Source: Gammaproteobacteria bacterium
Lineage (GTDB): Bacteria; Pseudomonadota; Gammaproteobacteria; Ga0077536
NCBI GenBank assembly: GCA_016209015.1
Contig: JACQWY010000032.1
Location: forward strand, 103,427-167,426
Length of the DNA stretch: 64,000 bases
Reading direction: 5' to 3'
The notes under the pieces were generated by a model. The model was not told the origin of the DNA. It did no database searches and worked only from the letters and a program-made list of their open reading frames with translations. The translations under genes and the position numbers were made by a program. This document shows positions 36,990 through 46,865 of the stretch, piece by piece (position 1 is the first letter of the stretch; each line of letters begins with the position of its first letter).

Positions 36990-37023
36990 CCCCACCGCGC
37001 GGTCATCCGCCGGTGGGGTTTTT
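36990..37023 (+). terminator. intrinsic terminator
   Basis: CCCCACCG...CGGTGGGG stem followed by TTTTT. Confidence 0.8.
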
Positions 37024-37100
37024 CGTGTCTGGAGGATTTGATTGAGGGCTTCGGCGGTCGCGCGAAGCCCTGAGGAGCGGGATCTGTCTCGAAAGGCGTC

Positions 37101-37250
37101 TCAGCGCGGCTTCGTGTTCTGAGGCGGCTCTGCCGAGAGCTTCATGAACATGTTGGCCAGATAACCCACGATCCCGATGGTTATGACCACCACACCCAGG
37201 CTCATGAGGCCGATGTCGGTGGCGAACAGCTCTTGCATTAATGCCATCAT
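37101..37250 (-). CDS. DUF3149-like small membrane protein (49 aa)
   Basis: Unlisted short ORF MMALMQELFATDIGLMSLGVVVITIGIVGYLANMFMKLSAEPPQNTKPR; one TM segment. Confidence 0.6.
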   Translation of the reverse strand: MMALMQELFATDIGLMSLGVVVITIGIVGYLANMFMKLSAEPPQNTKPR

Positions 37251-37598
37251 AAAATTTCCCTGATTTTCCGGAGCCCCGCATCACCCTACGCCTGCCCCCG
37301 GTCGCGATTCTGACCTGGATCAACAAGCCCGAGGCCTCGTCCTACACCGGCACCCGGCTTTGTCCGACAAAAAACTGGCGCACACGCAAGATATTTGCGC
37401 TAGACTGCCATGAACTTCGAAGCCGGCGCGCCGTATCGCCGCCGGTCTCGCCTAACCGAGCACTTCAGATTCGTCCCCGTCGTGCGTTCGTTAGAAGAAT
37501 CTGCCGCCTTGCGGCATTTCGGTTGCGATGGGCTTTGTGCATGGGCCGTCGGAACTGTGAATGAGGATCACGCACGACAATCTGATGAGACAATCTGC

Positions 37599-37868
37599 AT
37601 GAATATCTATGTTGGTAACCTGGCCTATTCCGTCACCGATGAGGATCTCCGCGAAGCGTTCTCCGCTTCGGGCCAAGTCACGCGCGCAAGCGTGGTGAAG
37701 GACAAGTTCTCGGGTCAATCCAAGGGCTTCGGCTTCGTCGAAATGCCCGATGGCGTCGAAGCCAATAACGCCATAAAGGCCATGAACGATAAGCCCCTGA
37801 AGGGCCGTAACCTGCGCGTCAACGAAGCTCGTCCCCGCGAAGAGCGCCCGCGCCGCGCGTCGTTCTAA
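37599..37868 (+). CDS. RRM-domain RNA-binding protein
   Basis: 'MNIYVGNLAYSVTDEDLREAF', RNP1 'SKGFGFVEM'. Confidence 0.92.
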   Translation: MNIYVGNLAYSVTDEDLREAFSASGQVTRASVVKDKFSGQSKGFGFVEMPDGVEANNAIKAMNDKPLKGRNLRVNEARPREERPRRASF

Positions 37869-37932
37869 GTCCGCGGGCGGGTCACCGCCCACGAACGTCT
37901 TCAGGGTGCGCGGCCTCGTGCCGCGCGTCCTT

Positions 37933-40479
37933 TCAGAACAAATCGTCCAAGTCGTCCGCGCCGCCCCCCGGCATGCGCCCGTGCGTCTGCACGTAGGCCT
38001 GGATGAGCTGCGATTCCCGCGACGTGTAGAGCGCCGCTTCCTCGAACACGAATGAACCGGCCTCGACTCCGGCAGCAAGCTGCCCGGCGAGCCCGGCACG
38101 CAGATTCTCGACCCCTTTGATGACCGTCACCATGCCGGTGGCGTCGATGAGCTGGAACACTCCGGCCTCCGCAGGCACGCCTGCGATCGTCGCCGCATCG
38201 AAGCGCAGACTCGTCGTGGGCGGCAGCGGCGCCGCGCAGATTCCGGCTGCGAGATTGCAGCGCAGACAGCGCGCCGCTTCGCGCCGTCCCTCGGCGTCCG
38301 TATAAGCACACTCGACCTCGTCCCAGCCCGCGCGTGCGGCCGGCTCGCGCAGCGGCGGCTTCACCCGCGGCCGGCGATTGAAGCCGTCCTCGCGTCCCAG
38401 CGACTGCATCGGCTCGTCCGGCGGCAGCAGCACCTCGCTGATGTCGCCGTCGCCGCCGAGTGCGAGATCGATGGCCGCCGCCGCGATCCGCCCGTGCGCG
38501 ACGGCTTCGATCAGCGTCGCGGACCCGAGCACGCAATCGCCGCCCGCGTAGACGCCCGCACGGCTCGTCATGAGGGTGTCGGCGCGCACGACGAAACGGC
38601 CGCTCGCGTCGACGTCCACGCCGAAATGCGCGGCGCGATGCGGGCGCTGACCGACGGCGGCGATCACGAGGTCGACGGCGTGCGTGCGCTCCGTGCCCGG
38701 CACCGGCACGGGCCGGGCGCGACCCGAGGCGTCCGGCTCGCCGAGGCGCATTTCCTGATAGGTGATTGCGAGCCGCGCCTCGCCGTCGTGCGGCTCGATG
38801 CGTATGGGTGCCAACAGATAATGCACATTCACGCCTTCGTCGAGGCAACCCGCGAGCTCGTCCTCGCGTGCCGGCATCTCGGCCTGCGTGCGGCGATACA
38901 CCATGTCGACTTCCGCACCGAGTCGCCGCGAGGAACGCGCGTTGTCCGTCGCGACGTTGCCGCCGCCGATCACCGCGACCTTGCGGCCGGTCATGATGCC
39001 GCCCTCGGTGTTCACGAGCCCCATGGTCGCGGCGCGCAGGAACGTCGGGCTGTCGACGACACCCGGCAAATCGTCGCCCGGCACGCCGAGCGCATCCCCG
39101 GCCTGACAGCCGATGCCGATGAAGATCGCCTCGTAGCCGGCGGCGAACAGCGCAGCGACGTCTTCCACCCGCGTGTCGTAACGGAATTCGACGCCGAGGC
39201 GCGCGACTTCGCCGACCTCGTTCGCAATGACCTCGATCGGCACGCGATACGACGGAATGCCGTAGCGCGCCATGCCGCCGCCGGCGGGATGCGCGTCGAA
39301 AACGGCGACCGCATGGCCCTGCTTCGCGAGGTAGTACGCGACGGTCAGGCCCGCCGGCCCGGCGCCGATCACCGCGGCACGCCGGCCGCTCGGCGGCAGG
39401 CGTTTCGCATGCGCACGCCAGCGACCGTCGTCGTTGTCCGCGGCGAGACGCTTGAGACTGCGGATCGCGATCGGCTCGTCGAGCTCACCGCGCCGGCACA
39501 CGCCCTCGCACATCGCGAAGCAGGCGCGCCCGAGGATGCCGGGGAACGGCAGCTTCTCGCGCACGACCGCGACGGCTTCCCCATAGCGCCCTTCCGAAGC
39601 GAGCTGCACGTAACGCGGCACGTCGATGCCGGCGGGGCACGCCGCCTCGCAGGGCACCCTCGAAGACTCGCGATGCGCCGGATCGAGCGTGCGATCGATC
39701 AGCGCGCCCGTCGGGCACACCGTCACGCAGGCCTGGCAGAAGCGGCAGCCCGACTCGACGAGCGTCTCGGCGATCGCGCCGACATAGTGCCGCGTGCCGT
39801 CAGCCGTCTCGATCGCCTTCACTTCGAGGCAACCCACCTCGCGGACGTCGTTGCAGGCCGTCAGACAGCGCCTGCAGTCGATGCACAGGTTGTAATCGCG
39901 ATCGAAGAACGGCTCGCTGCGCGAGACGGTGAGATCGTCGGGCCTGTAAACCGGCGTATTGTTCGGAATGCCGATGTGATCGGCGATCTTGCGCAGCTCG
40001 CAGGACGCGAAGATCTCGCAGCAGCGCGTCGCCGGCGGGTTACCGTAGGAGCACTGCGAGCGACTGCAGCCTTCGCGCTGCGGACAGGTCAGACAGACGT
40101 GCGGGTGATGCGCGAGGATCTTCGCGAGCTTCGTCTGGCGCGCCGCGATCACGGCCGGCGTCGCAGTACGTATGGAGAGACCGGGCGCGACGGCGAGATC
40201 GCAGGAACGGTGCAGGCCGTCGCGGCCGTCGACCTCGACGAGACAGAGCTGACAGCCCTCGCCACCGCCGCCGCGCCGGAGCGCCGGCGGCAGATCGGGA
40301 TGCGCGCAGAGCGCGGGAATGTAGACGCCGGCGTGATGCGCGGCGTTCAGGACCGAAGCGCCCGCCGGTGCCGCGACGGCGGTGCCGTCGAGCACGAAGC
40401 TCACCGGCGCCCCGAACGCCGCGGCATCCGCCGCGCGGCTCATCGTCCACCATTCGTGCTTCGCTCCCGCACCCATCGC
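37933..40479 (-). CDS. bzdV: BzdV-like Fe-S/FAD oxidoreductase (2Fe-2S + 2x[4Fe-4S] + GltD-like)
   Basis: 'CAHPDLPP...GEGCQLCLVEV'; 'CIDCRRCLTACNDVREVGC'; 'CRFCQACVTVCPTGAL'; 'VIGAGPAGLTVAYYLAKQGHAVAVFD'; exact start uncertain. Confidence 0.75.
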   Translation of the reverse strand, partial: AMGAGAKHEWWTMSRAADAAAFGAPVSFVLDGTAVAAPAGASVLNAAHHAGVYIPALCAHPDLPPALRRGGGGEGCQLCLVEVDGRDGLHRSCDLAVAPGLSIRTATPAVIAARQTKLAKILAHHPHVCLTCPQREGCSRSQCSYGNPPATRCCEIFASCELRKIADHIGIPNNTPVYRPDDLTVSRSEPFFDRDYNLCIDCRRCLTACNDVREVGCLEVKAIETADGTRHYVGAIAETLVESGCRFCQACVTVCPTGALIDRTLDPAHRESSRVPCEAACPAGIDVPRYVQLASEGRYGEAVAVVREKLPFPGILGRACFAMCEGVCRRGELDEPIAIRSLKRLAADNDDGRWRAHAKRLPPSGRRAAVIGAGPAGLTVAYYLAKQGHAVAVFDAHPAGGGMARYGIPSYRVPIEVIANEVGEVARLGVEFRYDTRVEDVAALFAAGYEAIFIGIGCQAGDALGVPGDDLPGVVDSPTFLRAATMGLVNTEGGIMTGRKVAVIGGGNVATDNARSSRRLGAEVDMVYRRTQAEMPAREDELAGCLDEGVNVHYLLAPIRIEPHDGEARLAITYQEMRLGEPDASGRARPVPVPGTERTHAVDLVIAAVGQRPHRAAHFGVDVDASGRFVVRADTLMTSRAGVYAGGDCVLGSATLIEAVAHGRIAAAAIDLALGGDGDISEVLLPPDEPMQSLGREDGFNRRPRVKPPLREPAARAGWDEVECAYTDAEGRREAARCLRCNLAAGICAAPLPPTTSLRFDAATIAGVPAEAGVFQLIDATGMVTVIKGVENLRAGLAGQLAAGVEAGSFVFEEAALYTSRESQLIQAYVQTHGRMPGGGADDLDDLF

Positions 40480-40487
40480 GCTTCTCC

Positions 40488-41120
40488 TCATTCGATGCTG
40501 ACGTGGCCCTTGTAGTAGGCGCCGCGACACGCCCCGGCGCGCACGGCCGCGACGAAAGTCTGCATGTCGCTCACCGGCACGCAGAACTCCGTCGCGCAAC
40601 GCGCGACTGCCGCGCTGCGATGGCAGTCGCTGCCGCCGAGTCCGGGCAGGCCGCGTTCGTGCGCGGCCTGCAAGGCACGCGCATTCGTCTCGCGATCGTT
40701 GCCGCCGTTGTGGGTCTCGAGCGCGGCGATGCCGCCGAGAGAGCGCGCGCCGTCGAGCAGGCTCGCGACCCCCGTTTCGCGATAGGGATGGGCCGGTACG
40801 CAGATGCCGCCGAGCGCCGCGATGCGGGCCGTGAGCTCGTCGATCGGCAGGTAGTTGTCGCGGCCCCAGCAGTTCCAGGAATCGTCCACGACGCCGTAGA
40901 CGAGCACGTGTCCGCGATCCGTCGAGGCTTCGACGCCGCGCAGCACCAGGAGCTCGAATTCCCCGGCGAGCGCTTCGATCGGCGCCGAAGCTTCATACGA
41001 GTGGTGCTCGGTGACGACGACGCCGTCGAGCCCCTGATCCTTCGCGCGGCGCAAGAGATCGCCCGGCTCGAGCCAGTTGTCGTGCGAGTACTTCGTATGA
41101 CAGTGGCAGTCGATCCACAT
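40488..41120 (-). CDS. PHP-domain metal-dependent phosphoesterase-like protein
   Basis: 'MWIDCHCHTKYSHDNWLEPGDLLRRAKDQGLDGVVVTEH', 'GGSDCHR'. Confidence 0.85.
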   Translation of the reverse strand: MWIDCHCHTKYSHDNWLEPGDLLRRAKDQGLDGVVVTEHHSYEASAPIEALAGEFELLVLRGVEASTDRGHVLVYGVVDDSWNCWGRDNYLPIDELTARIAALGGICVPAHPYRETGVASLLDGARSLGGIAALETHNGGNDRETNARALQAAHERGLPGLGGSDCHRSAAVARCATEFCVPVSDMQTFVAAVRAGACRGAYYKGHVSIE

Positions 41121-41129
41121 GGCCCGTGC

Positions 41130-41579
41130 TCAGGGCAGGGCGAATTCGAGATTGATGCGCTTCGAGGGCACGAACTTGTGGCGCGCGAAGAACCGCTCCA
41201 GCGCGAAGTCGTCCCAGTTCACGAGCGTGTAGACCTTCGTCACGCCCGCCGCCTTCATGTTCATCATGAACTGATCGAGCAGCTCGCTCGCGAGACCTTT
41301 GTGCTGGAGCGCGGGATCGACGCCGAGTGAATCGATCGTCGCCGTCGTCTCGGGGATCCCGAACTCGCCGAAGTAGACGTCGCCCATGATGAAGCCGGCG
41401 ACCCTGCCGTCGATCTCGGCGACGATTGATGAATTGATGCTGCGGGTCGGATCCGTGATGAGCGCGATCTTCCGCTCGTAGTATTCGCGGCGCGACTGGC
41501 GGCTCGCCTTCTCGTCGATCGCGACGATGGCGTCGAGATCGCCGGCCTTCAGCACACGCAGGATGCGGTCCTCTGACAT
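41130..41579 (-). CDS. GNAT family N-acetyltransferase
   Basis: 'MSEDRILRVLKAGDLDAIVAIDEKASRQSRREYYERK...SLGVDPALQHKGLASELLDQFM'. Confidence 0.85.
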   Translation of the reverse strand: MSEDRILRVLKAGDLDAIVAIDEKASRQSRREYYERKIALITDPTRSINSSIVAEIDGRVAGFIMGDVYFGEFGIPETTATIDSLGVDPALQHKGLASELLDQFMMNMKAAGVTKVYTLVNWDDFALERFFARHKFVPSKRINLEFALP

Positions 41580-41619
41580 GTCGTCCCTCCTTGCGGGAAA
41601 CCGCCCGCGGGCGGCGCTG

Positions 41620-41880
41620 TCAATCGAACAGTTCGTCCGTCGCCGGCGCATCCGCGCGGCGTCGCACGTAGAGCGTGCCGAGCACCTGGCCCAGGGCTTC
41701 GCCGGCATCGAGGCAGCTCGTGCATTCGTCGCCGCAGCGCGGCGGCAGGCCGCGGATCTCGACCTCGTAGCCGAGCGCGCGATAGTTCTGCGCCATTTCC
41801 GAGAGCCGCGGCTCGGAGAGCGTCGAGAGGCGCTGCCAGCCGTCGTCCTGTACCTGTTCTGCCGGGACGATGGGGATCAC
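41620..41880 (-). CDS. small Cys-containing protein (86 aa) within the bzd-like operon
   Basis: GTG-start reading VIPIVPAEQVQDDGWQRLSTLSEPRLSEMAQNYRALGYEVEIRGLPPRCGDECTSCLDAGEALGQVLGTLYVRRR...; lies between the ferredoxin and GNAT genes. Confidence 0.5.
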   Translation of the reverse strand: MIPIVPAEQVQDDGWQRLSTLSEPRLSEMAQNYRALGYEVEIRGLPPRCGDECTSCLDAGEALGQVLGTLYVRRRADAPATDELFD

Positions 41881-41894
41881 GCGGCGCACGGCGG

Positions 41895-42179
41895 CTACCA
41901 AGAATGCCCGATCGCGCCCGGCGTGCAGGCGCTCGCGCAGGGCAAGGGTCCGCGCCCGGTCGAGGGTTTGCACTCGGCGCAATCGTAAGCGAGGCTGCGG
42001 CGGAACTGCTCCTTCACGTGCACGACCTCGTCGTCGTAATCGTCGACCATGGATTCGAACATGCCTTTCGGGCACGCGCCCAGGCAGGCGCGACCGACCG
42101 GGCAGGTGATGCACTGGTCCGTGTCGATGCTGATGTAGTACTCGCCCGAGCCGTCCTTGTAACCGTAGTTCGCGATCAC
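41895..42179 (-). CDS. bzdM: ferredoxin (electron donor to benzoyl-CoA reductase)
   Basis: 'IDTDQCITCPVGRACLGACPKGMFE...AYDCAECKPSTGRGPLPCASACTPGAI' Fe-S Cys motifs. Confidence 0.75.
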   Translation of the reverse strand: MIANYGYKDGSGEYYISIDTDQCITCPVGRACLGACPKGMFESMVDDYDDEVVHVKEQFRRSLAYDCAECKPSTGRGPLPCASACTPGAIGHSW

Positions 42180-42189
42180 GGCGCCGGCC

Positions 42190-43107
42190 TCAGGCGAGGA
42201 GGGGCTTAGCCGGCCCCTGTTTCTGCACGAGCGTGTGGGCGAACAGCGCGCCGCCGAGCGCGCCGGCGATCTGGCTGTCGATCTTCGTCGCCATGGCCTG
42301 GATGCCCAGCAATTTCTCGATGCGCTTCACGACGCCGGGGTTCTTCGCGATGCCCCCGGTGATGAAGAAGCCTTCCTCCACACCGATGCGCTCCAGCAGC
42401 GACACCACGCGTTCGGCCATCGCCTGGCAATACGCCGCGATCACCTTGTTCTTCGTGTAACCGCCCTTCAGCAGCGCGAGCGCTTCCGACTTCGCGAACA
42501 CGACGCACACCGAGGACACGGCCTCGGGCTCCTGGTCGACGTCGAACGAGCGCCCGCCGAGCTCGGCGATCGGGATCTGCATGAGATCGGAGATCACTTC
42601 CATGCCGCGGCCGGTTCCCGCCGCGCACTTGTCGTTCATGAGGAAGTTCGTAACCTTGCCCTTCTCGTCGCAGTGGATGGCCTTGCAGTCCTGGCCGCCC
42701 ATGTCGAGGATCGTGCGCACCGAGTTGCCGCCCATGTAGTTCGCGCCGCGCGCATGGCAGGCGATTTCCGTGATGGCCTTGTGCGAGAACGGCACGTTGA
42801 CGCGGCCGTAGCCGGTGCCGACGACGAAGTGCACGTCGTTCAGCGTCATGCCGGTCTGGCCCGCGATGCCCTTGAACGCATTCAGCGCGGAATCCGGCGA
42901 GTTGCTGCCGGTGCGCATGGAGCTGTAGGCATAGAGCTCGCCGTCGGCGACGGCGACGCACTGCGAGCTCACGGAGCCGACGTCGATGCCGAGCGTGAGC
43001 GTCTTCGCGCTCCGCCAGTCCTTCGTCTCGTCCACCCAGACGTTCTCGGCCCAGCGCCAGAATTCGGGTTTCTCGCCGGCGGCGGGCGTAGCGGCTTCTG
43101 CATTCAT
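42190..43107 (-). CDS. bzdQ: class I benzoyl-CoA reductase ATPase subunit (BzdQ/BcrD-type)
   Basis: 'TLGIDVGSVSSQCVAV', 'VVGTGYGRVNVPF', 'DMGGQDCKAI', 'NDKCAAGTGRGMEVI', 'VCVVFAKSEALALL', 'GGIAKNPGVV'. Confidence 0.87.
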   Translation of the reverse strand: MNAEAATPAAGEKPEFWRWAENVWVDETKDWRSAKTLTLGIDVGSVSSQCVAVADGELYAYSSMRTGSNSPDSALNAFKGIAGQTGMTLNDVHFVVGTGYGRVNVPFSHKAITEIACHARGANYMGGNSVRTILDMGGQDCKAIHCDEKGKVTNFLMNDKCAAGTGRGMEVISDLMQIPIAELGGRSFDVDQEPEAVSSVCVVFAKSEALALLKGGYTKNKVIAAYCQAMAERVVSLLERIGVEEGFFITGGIAKNPGVVKRIEKLLGIQAMATKIDSQIAGALGGALFAHTLVQKQGPAKPLLA

Positions 43108-43126
43108 CGTTGATTCCCCTCGGCGT

Positions 43127-43936
43127 TCAGGCGCGTTGCGTGGCGGCGAGCAGCGCACAGCCGAGCGCGCTCACGTATTCCGGCATGTCGGGCAGCTTGA
43201 TTTCGTCCACCCCCATCGCGGTCTGCAGCGATTTCACGAAGCCCGTGTTGTGGACCATGCCGCCGATGAGCACCACGTCGTTGTCGATGCCGACCCGGCG
43301 CACCATCGCGCACACGCGGCTCGCGACGGCGTCGAGCACGGCCTTCGCGATGTCCTCTTTCGGCGTCGAGGAATGGATGAGCGAGACGACTTCGGATTCC
43401 GCGAAGACGGTGCACTGCGCATTCATCGGGATCGAGCGATCCGAGCGCAGGCTCGATTCGCCGAACTCCTTCAGCGACATCTGCAGCGCGCGGCTCATCG
43501 CCTCGGCGAACGAGCCCGCGCCGGCCGCGCACTTCTCGTTGCCGGCGAAGTCCGTCGCCTTGCCGGAGCCGTCGGTCTTGATGCCGCGGCCCTCCTCGGC
43601 GCCGACGTCGACGATCGTGCGCGCGCTCGGGTAGAAGAACGACGCACCCTTCGCGCCCGCGGACATCTCGGTGACGCTGTCCGTCGCGAACTTCACCATC
43701 TTGCGACCCGCCCCCGTCGCGTAGACGGCACCGACCGCGCCGCGGTCGAGCCCGGCCGAGGCGAGCGCCTCCTCGAAGGCCTGATCCGCCGCGGCATCCG
43801 CGTCGAGATCGCCCGGGAACATGAGGTGTTTGCCCTTGACCACGAATTGCAGCGCGGGTGCACCCTCGACTTTCGCATCCTCGAGCAGCACCACTTTGAC
43901 GGTGCGCGAGCCCATGTCGATACCGGCGGTGATCAT
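43127..43936 (-). CDS. bzdP: class I benzoyl-CoA reductase ATPase subunit (BzdP/BcrA-type)
   Basis: 'AGIDMGSRTVKVVLL', 'TGAGRKMVKFA', 'NEKCAAGAGSFAEAM', 'QCTVFAESEVVSLI', 'GGMVHNTGFV'. Confidence 0.87.
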   Translation of the reverse strand: MITAGIDMGSRTVKVVLLEDAKVEGAPALQFVVKGKHLMFPGDLDADAAADQAFEEALASAGLDRGAVGAVYATGAGRKMVKFATDSVTEMSAGAKGASFFYPSARTIVDVGAEEGRGIKTDGSGKATDFAGNEKCAAGAGSFAEAMSRALQMSLKEFGESSLRSDRSIPMNAQCTVFAESEVVSLIHSSTPKEDIAKAVLDAVASRVCAMVRRVGIDNDVVLIGGMVHNTGFVKSLQTAMGVDEIKLPDMPEYVSALGCALLAATQRA

Positions 43937-43953
43937 GTCGTTGCGTCCTCCGT

Positions 43954-45264
43954 TCAGGCGGCCGTCTTGCGCAGGCCGAGTTGTTCCATGAAGGCGTCGA
44001 CGCGGCCCTGCGTGCGCACTTCGTCGAATTCGCGCTCGTCGCCCATATTGCCCTCGAAAGTCATGACGGGTATGCCCGAGCCGGCGAGGCCGAGGCGATT
44101 CTCCATGATGCCGAGCGAGAGCCCTTCGCAGCCGCGGTTCAGGTGCAGCATCACGCCGTCGACGTGCCATTCCTTCACGATGCGCATCATCATCTCGGTC
44201 TTCAGGCGCGCGTCGTAGAAGTGCTGCCACTGCGGCTTCGAGAGATTCCATTCCGCGTAGAGCTTCAAGGCCGTGTCGCGATCGTTCATCTCGATGCCCT
44301 TGTCCCACGGCAGCGTGCGGCCGCCCCAGCTGCCGTCGGGCTTGTCTTCCCAGATGCCCTCGAGGCCGAAGGTATAGAGCGAGCCGACCGAGACCGTGCC
44401 GAAGGTTTCGAGATAACGGAAGATCTTGAGGAAGCTCCACGGGGGTTGCGTGTCGGAGATGACGCGGCAGCGCTCGTTCGGCACCGCGGCGATGCCGCGC
44501 GCGACGCGATCCTTCACCTCGTCGTAGAGCTCATCATAGAAGTCCGCGCACCACTGCGCGGACTTGTGCAGCGTCGCGAGCACGTAGAGCGAGTACATCG
44601 TCTTTTCGTCGAGCGGCGCGGGACGTGCCTTGTTCAGCGCGCAGATGTCCGCCCAGCGGCTCGTCGAGCGCATCTCGTTCCTGATCGCGCGAATGAGGCG
44701 CTCGTCGTCACACTTCCGGCCCGTCGCCTTCTCGATGAACTCGATGCCGTCGTGAAGCTGGTTCGCGACGTAAGCGATGCGCTGGGCGTCGAGATCACGA
44801 TGCGGTCCGACGCCGACGTCGAGATAGAACTGCGGCACCTTCTCGTGCTGCGCGACGTGCTGGTACCACTTCGAGTGCGAGCAGCAGATCTGGGTCTGGA
44901 AGATGAAATCCGGTTTCGGGAACGTGCCGCCGAACGCGTATTTGTTCAGATGCATGCCGCCCCAGTAGATGCGCATGTAGGCGCAGAGATCGCGCGCGAA
45001 GCCATAGGCCTCGGCGGCATCCATGCATTCCTTCGCGAAGCGGCGATCGTGCGAGGCGGAGGCCGCATAAGGCTCGCCGGTCAATGAATAGACGTCATCT
45101 CCGAACGCGGTCGGGATCGCGTCCAGCGCCCAGGCGGAGCCCGACCAGCGCAGCCCGCCGTTGTCCTTGGCGCGTGCGTAGTTCAGGTAATACTGCTCGC
45201 GCAGCTCCTTCGCCTTCTTCCAGAGCTTCAGCGGTTCGGTCGGATAGCGGTTCTCGGCGGTCAT
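43954..45264 (-). CDS. bzdO: class I benzoyl-CoA reductase catalytic subunit (BzdO/BcrB-type)
   Basis: '[57 protein letters not shown]', '[18 protein letters not shown]', '[19 protein letters not shown]'. Confidence 0.87.
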
Positions 45265-45280: not shown

Positions 45281-46420
45281 TCAGAACAGGTCGTCTTCGC
45301 GCAGCGTCTCGAGGAAGGCCTCGATGCGGATGCGGAACGGACCGATCGGATTCGTGATGTCGAACTCGAGGAAGAGCGTCGGGATGCCGGCCGCCTCGAG
45401 ATGGCGTTTCAGGTCGGGATAATCGCCTTCGTGCGGATCGCAGAACTTCTGCTGCAGGAACACCGCGGCCTGCGCCTTGTAATTCTGCGCGAGCTTCAGC
45501 ACGTGATCGAAGCGGGTGTGCTCGGGATAGTCCTTCGTCGGGCACGCCGGGCGTTCGCAGTAGCGGTCCGCGATCGCCGCGACCGCGTCGCCGTTCACCT
45601 TCACCTCGTTCCAGAAGTAGCGCGATCCCGAGCACTGGTCGTCGATGACGATCGTCGCACCCACGGATTCCACCATCGCCATGAAGCCGCAATCGTCGTT
45701 CTCGGAGCCGATGGTCATGAGCCGCACGCCTTCTTCCCGTTCCATCTCGCGATCCGGCAAGGCGGCGATCACGCGCTTCAACTCCGCGTTGTGCTCGCGC
45801 TTGTCGACGAACTGCGCGGTCAGCGCGGCGTAGACGGCTTCGAGCCCCGTGACTTTCGGATTCGCTTCCTTGCGGAATTCGTAGAGCGCGCGGAGCAGGC
45901 GACGGTTCTCGTTCACGACGCCGATCGCCTCGTTCAGCGCGGCCTCGTCGAGCGCGCGGCCCGTGAGCTGCTCGAGGAACTCGCGGAAGCGTCGGACCTC
46001 GTGGCGGTGCGCGGCTTTCGCATGGCGACTCTGCACGTCGTTCGGCATCGGGCAGTAGTAGTCCCACTGCACGGACGGCACGTGGCGGCGCCAGGCGTCG
46101 AAGGCCTGCCGGTACTGGATGCAGGATTGGGTGAGCGTCACGCCGTCGGCGTAGTCGAAGCGGCCGAGCAGCCCCTGCGCGAGCGAGTCGCGGCAGAACG
46201 GGCAGAACATGCCGAAGATGTGCGGCTCGGAGACGTTCTGGGGCTCGTGGGCGCCGAGCACGCGCACCGGCAGCATGCCGGCCGCGATCAGGAGCTCCTC
46301 GGGCGTGTAAGTGCACATCGTCGCCACGACCTGACCGCCGGTGCGGGCTTTCCAGTCCCGCGCGTAGTCGTGGCGCCGCTCGTACCAGGCCGTGAATTGG
46401 CCGAACAAGCCGCTTCCCAT
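45281..46420 (-). CDS. bzdN: class I benzoyl-CoA reductase catalytic subunit (BzdN/BcrC-type)
   Basis: '[22 protein letters not shown]', '[43 protein letters not shown]', '[34 protein letters not shown]'. Confidence 0.87.
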
Positions 46421-46475
46421 CGGGGGTCCTCCATCAGCTCAGCGTTGTCGGTCCGGCCTCGGTCGGGCCGGTAAA

Positions 46476-46515
46476 GGCAGCATATCGCAGAATATGCATT
46501 ATGTTGCATGCTGCC
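46476..46515 (-). promoter_or_regulatory. candidate operator: nested dyads with TGCA cores upstream of bzdN
   Basis: GGCAGCAT(46476-46483)...ATGCTGCC(46508-46515); ATGCA-N6-TGCAT at 46494-46509; minus-strand CATAAT -10-like hexamer inside. Confidence 0.5.
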
Positions 46516-46535
46516 GGGACGGCTTCCAGGCGGGT

Positions 46536-46549
46536 TTGACGCAGATCAA
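46536..46549 (-). promoter_or_regulatory. candidate FNR/AcpR-type box upstream of bzdN
   Basis: Minus strand TTGATCTGCGTCAA, one mismatch from TTGAT-N4-ATCAA; centred ~122 nt upstream of the bzdN ATG. Confidence 0.5.
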
Positions 46550-46865
46550 CGAAATGCGAGGGCGGGATGCGGGGCGTACACCCCGCGAGCGCGACGAAGT
46601 CGATCGTGGCCGCGGTGCCCGAGGCACCGAGGTCGAGAAGGATGACCGCCGCGACGGCGGCCGCCGGCCGGACGATGCCGTGCCTCGTGAGCAGCCGGTA
46701 AGAGGCGGACCCGTGGCCATGTCCGTCCCCGCGTTCAGCGGTTCGACGGTCGGCCTCCGGAGTGGCGGTGGGGCTGCGGACTGCAGGACGACGCCTTCGG
46801 CCGTGTCATCGGCCGGCGGGTCACTGCTCAGGGCAGGCGGCCGCGGCTCCCCGCGGCCGGCGCGC

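Follow-up and report, generated by a model that had tools for sequence, protein, structure and literature searches.

The window, i.e. the whole 64-kb stretch of DNA analysed here, carries a benzoyl-CoA reductase (bzd) operon on its minus strand. The features are listed below in the order in which the operon is read.

46536..46549, minus strand: candidate FNR/AcpR-type activator site TTGATCTGCGTCAA, with its centre predicted at -41.5 from the motif and from relatives
46508..46513, minus strand: most likely -10, CAGCAT, a weak hexamer placed by inference 22 nt after the FNR box
46499..46503, minus strand: predicted transcription start at about 46501, from an FNR box at -41.5 as in the PN promoter of Azoarcus sp. 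CIB (PMC6678401)
46494..46509, minus strand: operator 1, ATGCAACATAATGCAT (TGCA-N6-TGCA), 13/16 to the BoxR/BzdR consensus, predicted to span -8 to +8
46475..46490, minus strand: operator 2, degenerate, CTGCGATATGCTGCCT (10/16), which follows operator 1 at a distance of exactly 19 bp
46427..46432, minus strand: Shine-Dalgarno sequence GGAGGA
45281..46420, minus strand: bzdN, benzoyl-CoA reductase subunit N (TIGR03190, 744 bits; cut-off 454)
43954..45264, minus strand: bzdO, subunit O (TIGR03191, 907 bits)
43127..43939, minus strand: bzdP, BadF/BcrA-type ATPase subunit (TIGR00241, 200 bits; PF01869, 160 bits), its start inferred inside a longer ORF
42190..43158, minus strand: bzdQ, subunit Q (TIGR03192, 574 bits)
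41895..42179, minus strand: bzdM, ferredoxin-like, 79% identical to its positional counterpart in the closest relative (L007)
40488..41708, minus strand: GNAT-family and PHP-domain genes (PF00583, PF02811/PF13263), syntenic in other bzd operons
37933..40530, minus strand: bzdV-like iron-sulfur/FAD oxidoreductase gene, 70% identical to that of L007, the last recognisable gene of the cluster

The start codon of bzdN is at 46420-46418, with GGAGGA ahead of it. The bzdN, bzdO, and bzdQ products exceed the curated cut-offs by wide margins, and the order of the bzdM-like ferredoxin, GNAT, PHP-domain, and iron-sulfur/FAD oxidoreductase genes is that of other bzd operons. The bzdW, bzdX, and bzdY genes, which follow directly in L007, were not found after the bzdV-like gene (window positions 37000-37933). 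No BzdY above the cut-off of 464 bits was found in the genome, where the best score is 119 bits; the partial BzdY of L007 scores 444 bits. TIGR03189 is of little use for detecting BzdW in this clade, as the syntenic L007 gene is itself below the cut-off. Two BadI-like 2-ketocyclohexanecarboxyl-CoA hydrolases are encoded elsewhere, at L147:9269-10066 (contig C56; 437.5 bits) and L148:6686-7480 (C65; 432.6 bits), with a cut-off of 467.6 bits. Judging from the genes, a mixed route with a Bzd reductase and a Bad-type ring opening is possible.

Motifs in front of bzdN

The preliminary description had placed an FNR-like box next to nested TGCA dyads upstream of bzdN. Both were read directly on the minus strand. 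TTGATCTGCGTCAA occupies 46549-46536, 129 nt before the bzdN start, and has a single mismatch to TTGATNNNNATCAA. ATGCAACATAATGCAT lies at 46509-46494, 89 nt before the bzdN start, and forms the ATGCA-N6-TGCAT dyad. The outer arms (GGCAGCAT at 46476-46483 and ATGCTGCC at 46508-46515) and the pair of GCATAT (46480-46485) and ATATGC (46492-46497) are likewise present where claimed. The distance of "about 42 nt" from the box to a CATAAT hexamer has to be corrected; it is 46 nt from the first base of the box to the start of CATAAT, and the gap between them is 32 nt. Upstream, 445 bp (46421-46865) separate bzdN from a serine acetyltransferase-like gene; the G+C content of this intergenic region is 71%, while the operator stretch (46475-46515) has only 46%.

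The window has a single occurrence each of the FNR pattern with up to one mismatch (0.58 expected) and of TGCA-N6-TGCA (0.60 expected). Neither motif alone is significant across 64 kb, and each could be due to chance. Their position before bzdN is significant: in 500 shuffles of the 300-nt upstream region, neither the FNR box nor a 13/16 operator arose. The reality of the motifs is settled by their conservation in relatives. ATGCA-N6-TGCAT is present at two places only in the 5.7-Mb genome. The second place (C36:105542) overlaps the start codon of an unassigned ORF and offers no evidence of regulation. As for other 13/16 matches in the genome, the one at C29:109551 was rejected because it lies within a coding frame, and that at C39:99713, where a diguanylate cyclase gene begins, was set aside. 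A further 13/16 match is at C32:94160.

Are the motifs shared by other bzdN promoters? Eighty relatives were fetched, and operators were scored as 16-mer matches to the published BoxR/BzdR consensus ATGCACTATAGTGCAT (PMC6449761) with a threshold of 12/16. In the upstream set of 78 regions (77 relatives and the window), which was only lightly thinned, an operator of at least 12/16 was found in 69 regions (1.0 on average and at most 4 in shuffles), and 51 had an FNR box (0.12 in shuffles), the window being included in both counts. As a control for kinship, one sequence per 90%-identity BzdN cluster was taken without the window (n=23); the operator was found in 19, the FNR box in 14, and both in 14. 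Thus, both motifs are conserved in related bzdN promoters, and a strict FNR box is missing in about a third of the relatives. At the place homologous to operator 1, L007 has GTGCAACATAGTGCAT, and L015 has the identical FNR-box 14-mer at -125. A contig labelled Desulfobulbus (Thermodesulfobacteriota; L077) has a bzd operon, a linked BzdR, and an FNR box and operator resembling those of Rhodocyclaceae; this locus may reflect either transfer or mis-binning.

The nested dyads are best read as a strong and a weak palindromic operator at a distance of 19 bp from each other. Since two tandem palindromes necessarily make larger dyads, the nesting is explained. A TGCA-N6-TGCA palindrome near ATGCACTATAGTGCAT is thus present together with a repeat (13/16 and 10/16; per-position P of the latter match = 0.0007), as expected of BoxR/BzdR operators, in which the palindrome is usually repeated. 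Among the site pairs upstream of bzdN, a spacing of 19 bp is the most frequent (28 of 69 sequences), followed by 38 (17) and 30 bp (15). The TGCA(N15)TGCA of OR1, the PN operator, may accordingly represent the matching half-sites of two operators 19 bp apart. No other site of at least 11/16 that could serve as an upstream OR2/OR3-type operator was found within 300 nt of the bzdN ATG. In the upstream regions of L007-L086, BzdR/BoxR operators are placed in 19-bp (or 30-bp) increments that keep register with the FNR box.

The perfect 8-bp outer arms, GGCAGCAT and ATGCTGCC, might instead suggest an RNA hairpin or terminator. However, a start near 46501 would leave the 5′ arm untranscribed, no T-run follows the dyad, and the relatives keep the TGCA palindromes and the 19-bp spacing rather than the outer arms, so that this reading is barely credible. 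It is also very unlikely that the operator is read not by BoxR but by another TGCA-recognising regulator, such as a BenR/XylS-type AraC protein. The sites of BenR/XylS do contain TGCA, in the form TGCA-N6-GGNTA (PMC6678401, PMC6449761), whereas both half-sites are TGCA here and form a palindrome with 13/16 to ATGCACTATAGTGCAT, and the same motif is present at boxC and boxR.

The -10 hexamer and the position of the FNR box

In the relatives, hexamers with A2 and T6 are located 21 or 22 nt past the FNR box, and a -10 at one of these spacings was found in 13 of 15 clustered relatives. In class 50, whose operator is displaced downstream by 10 bp, all 14 sequences still have the -10 (TAGAAT or a variant of it) at spacing 22 (5/5 after clustering). 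Thus, the -10 stays put when the operator shifts, and the operator does not supply it. Because the relatives keep the -10 at 21-22 nt after the FNR box, the -10 of the window is most likely CAGCAT (46513-46508), which would centre the FNR box at -41.5 rather than -51.5. The box of AcpR at PN of Azoarcus sp. CIB is also centred at -41.5 (PMC6678401). CAGCAT matches TATAAT at only three of six positions, with A2 and T6 retained; such a weak hexamer fits an activator-dependent promoter and leaves room for CATAAT.

Use of CATAAT (46503-46498) as the -10, with the FNR box centred at -51.5, is improbable, even though this hexamer is a better match to the consensus (5/6) than CAGCAT and the 39-42 and 58 classes also have A/T-rich hexamers at spacing 31. 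In the window, CATAAT forms the middle of the operator, which is A/T-rich in all BoxR/BzdR sites (consensus CTATAG) and so mimics a -10. In addition, class 50 has no hexamer with A2 and T6 at spacing 31, and -51.5 is not known to be an established activating position of FNR. The earlier caveat that the box might be centred near -51.5 is right in its arithmetic for CATAAT, but the geometry most likely does not apply, as the conserved spacing points to CAGCAT.

Regulators encoded in the genome

The genome encodes six CRP/FNR-family proteins. One of them, on contig C24 (L001), has CxxC-x5-C and a central C, a helix ETISR, and a score of 188 bits to a solved FNR; its PRK11161 score of 225 bits is just under the cut-off of 228. 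With the 4Fe-4S cluster cysteines and the FNR-type recognition helix, it qualifies as an Fnr orthologue. FNR boxes also lie just before nosZ (L142:2652-2665) and hemN (L138:6401-6414), which are usual FNR targets. The host thus seems to be a denitrifier whose Fnr regulon is active. Three similar CRP-family regulators without the FNR cysteines and with a helix motif CSREMVG are encoded at G000 C2:92566 (10.8 kb left of the window) and on C12 and C59.

It had been noted that no bzdR lies nearby, and this holds: the single BzdR/BoxR homologue of the genome is on another contig (C32), beside box genes. It is 52% identical to Aromatoleum BzdR, scores 370 bits with NF006015 (cut-off 204), and has an HTH and a shikimate-kinase-like domain, as expected for BoxR. 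The gene adjoins boxC and boxB, with a benzoate-CoA ligase gene in the same region. In this 19-kb box region, only two sites of at least 11/16 are present, at boxC and upstream of boxR. The absence of either regulator would have spoken against the proposed control; both are encoded.

Other genomes, too, have a bzd operon with no repressor gene linked to it. At least 18 other fetched bzdN loci have operators and no bzdR in the examined flank. A BzdR/BoxR homologue was found in all 20 genomes tested, including most of those with such loci; the unlinked homologue is some 10-20 kb away on the same contig in some of them and far away in others.

Proposed control and origin of the operon

The bzdNOPQM... 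operon probably has a PN-like promoter that is activated by Fnr, repressed in trans by BoxR, and released by benzoyl-CoA. From the computed motifs, their conservation and spacing, the two regulators, and the same operator at the box genes, I infer the binding events, the start site, and the benzoyl-CoA response as follows. Under oxygen limitation, dimeric Fnr would bind TTGATCTGCGTCAA at -41.5 and activate RNA polymerase at the weak -10 CAGCAT, with transcription from near 46501. A BzdR/BoxR-family repressor would bind the TGCA-N6-TGCA operator overlapping the -10 and the start site, and a second dimer would probably bind the degenerate operator 19 bp downstream. Initiation would be blocked until benzoyl-CoA releases the repressor. 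Expression of the operon thus probably requires both the absence of oxygen and the presence of benzoyl-CoA. Since BoxR is the only such repressor in the genome and the box genes have the same operator, one BoxR, acting in trans, would govern both the aerobic and the anaerobic benzoyl-CoA routes, while Fnr would decide the anaerobic one.

The promoter shares with PN of Azoarcus sp. CIB/Aromatoleum the FNR/AcpR box at a predicted -41.5 upstream of bzdN, in line with the conserved -10 spacing, and an OR1-type operator of the BzdR kind over the -10 and +1 (PMC6678401). It differs from PN in the lack of OR2, OR3, and a linked bzdR, in its weak -10, and in a predicted leader of about 80 nt compared with 75 nt. 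In Azoarcus, OR1 alone mediates repression but not release by benzoyl-CoA (PMC6678401). As OR2 and OR3 are missing here, inducibility may differ, and the induction of the window promoter may follow other rules than that of PN. With the BoxR/BzdR regulon of Betaproteobacteria (PMC6449761), the locus shares the 13/16 match to ATGCACTATAGTGCAT and a box cluster that includes boxR and has the same sites. That study saw BoxR/BzdR control of bzd genes only where bzdR is linked (EbN1; PMC6449761), whereas the anaerobic operon here would depend on BoxR in trans. For Azoarcus sp. CIB, BoxR has already been described as acting on a bzd promoter, since it also represses PN there (cited in PMC4424350). 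BoxR would likewise act on the bzd promoter in trans here; BzdR is also present in that Azoarcus, in contrast to BoxR alone in this genome. In summary, the analysis supports a promoter that is ordinary in kind and functional-looking, and mostly as first proposed, with its geometry corrected. The idea of a conserved Azoarcus-type control by FNR and a BzdR-type repressor gains support from the two encoded regulators and the two conserved motifs.

The bzdN gene was found in 1 of 36 genomes of the family and in none of 143 other relatives searched, whereas BoxR is present in 27 of the 36. The BoxR of this genome groups with the family BoxR proteins (support 100/99). Thus, the operon was probably acquired and the repressor resident, and the operon would have been placed under the resident BoxR. 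In five of six family members of its own clade (L100-L104; not L105), sites of 13-15/16 lie near boxR. The rarity of bzdN in the family, the weak -10, the eroded operator 2, the lack of bzdWXY past the bzdV-like gene, and the lack of a BzdY above the cut-off might also be taken as signs of a relic, that is, an operon acquired with its promoter, now decaying and little regulated today. This is unlikely, because bzdNOPQM and the bzdV-like gene are intact and of full length, the Fnr box and operator 1 are well preserved, and the BadI-like hydrolases could finish the pathway. Regarding the acquired operon under resident control, a more far-reaching version can be put forward only tentatively. In this version, a horizontally acquired reductase operon that came without a repressor gene and ring-opening genes of its own fell under the control of the host's BoxR and Fnr, its product goes to a BadI-type rather than a BzdY-type hydrolase, and the BzdR/BoxR operators follow a 19-bp lattice that is in phase with the promoter. 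Such a lattice, if true, would bring the two published operator types, TGCA-N6-TGCA and TGCA-N15-TGCA, under one scheme.

The Azoarcus control logic, in which anoxia is sensed via Fnr and the substrate via benzoyl-CoA, would thus extend to a lineage that has apparently gained the operon recently and uses the host's own aerobic-pathway BoxR. The comparative set points to a simple rule of 19 bp for BzdR/BoxR operators and to a guide for reading the -10 boxes in such promoters. The bzdN locus offers a case in which regulatory capture following gene transfer can be tested.
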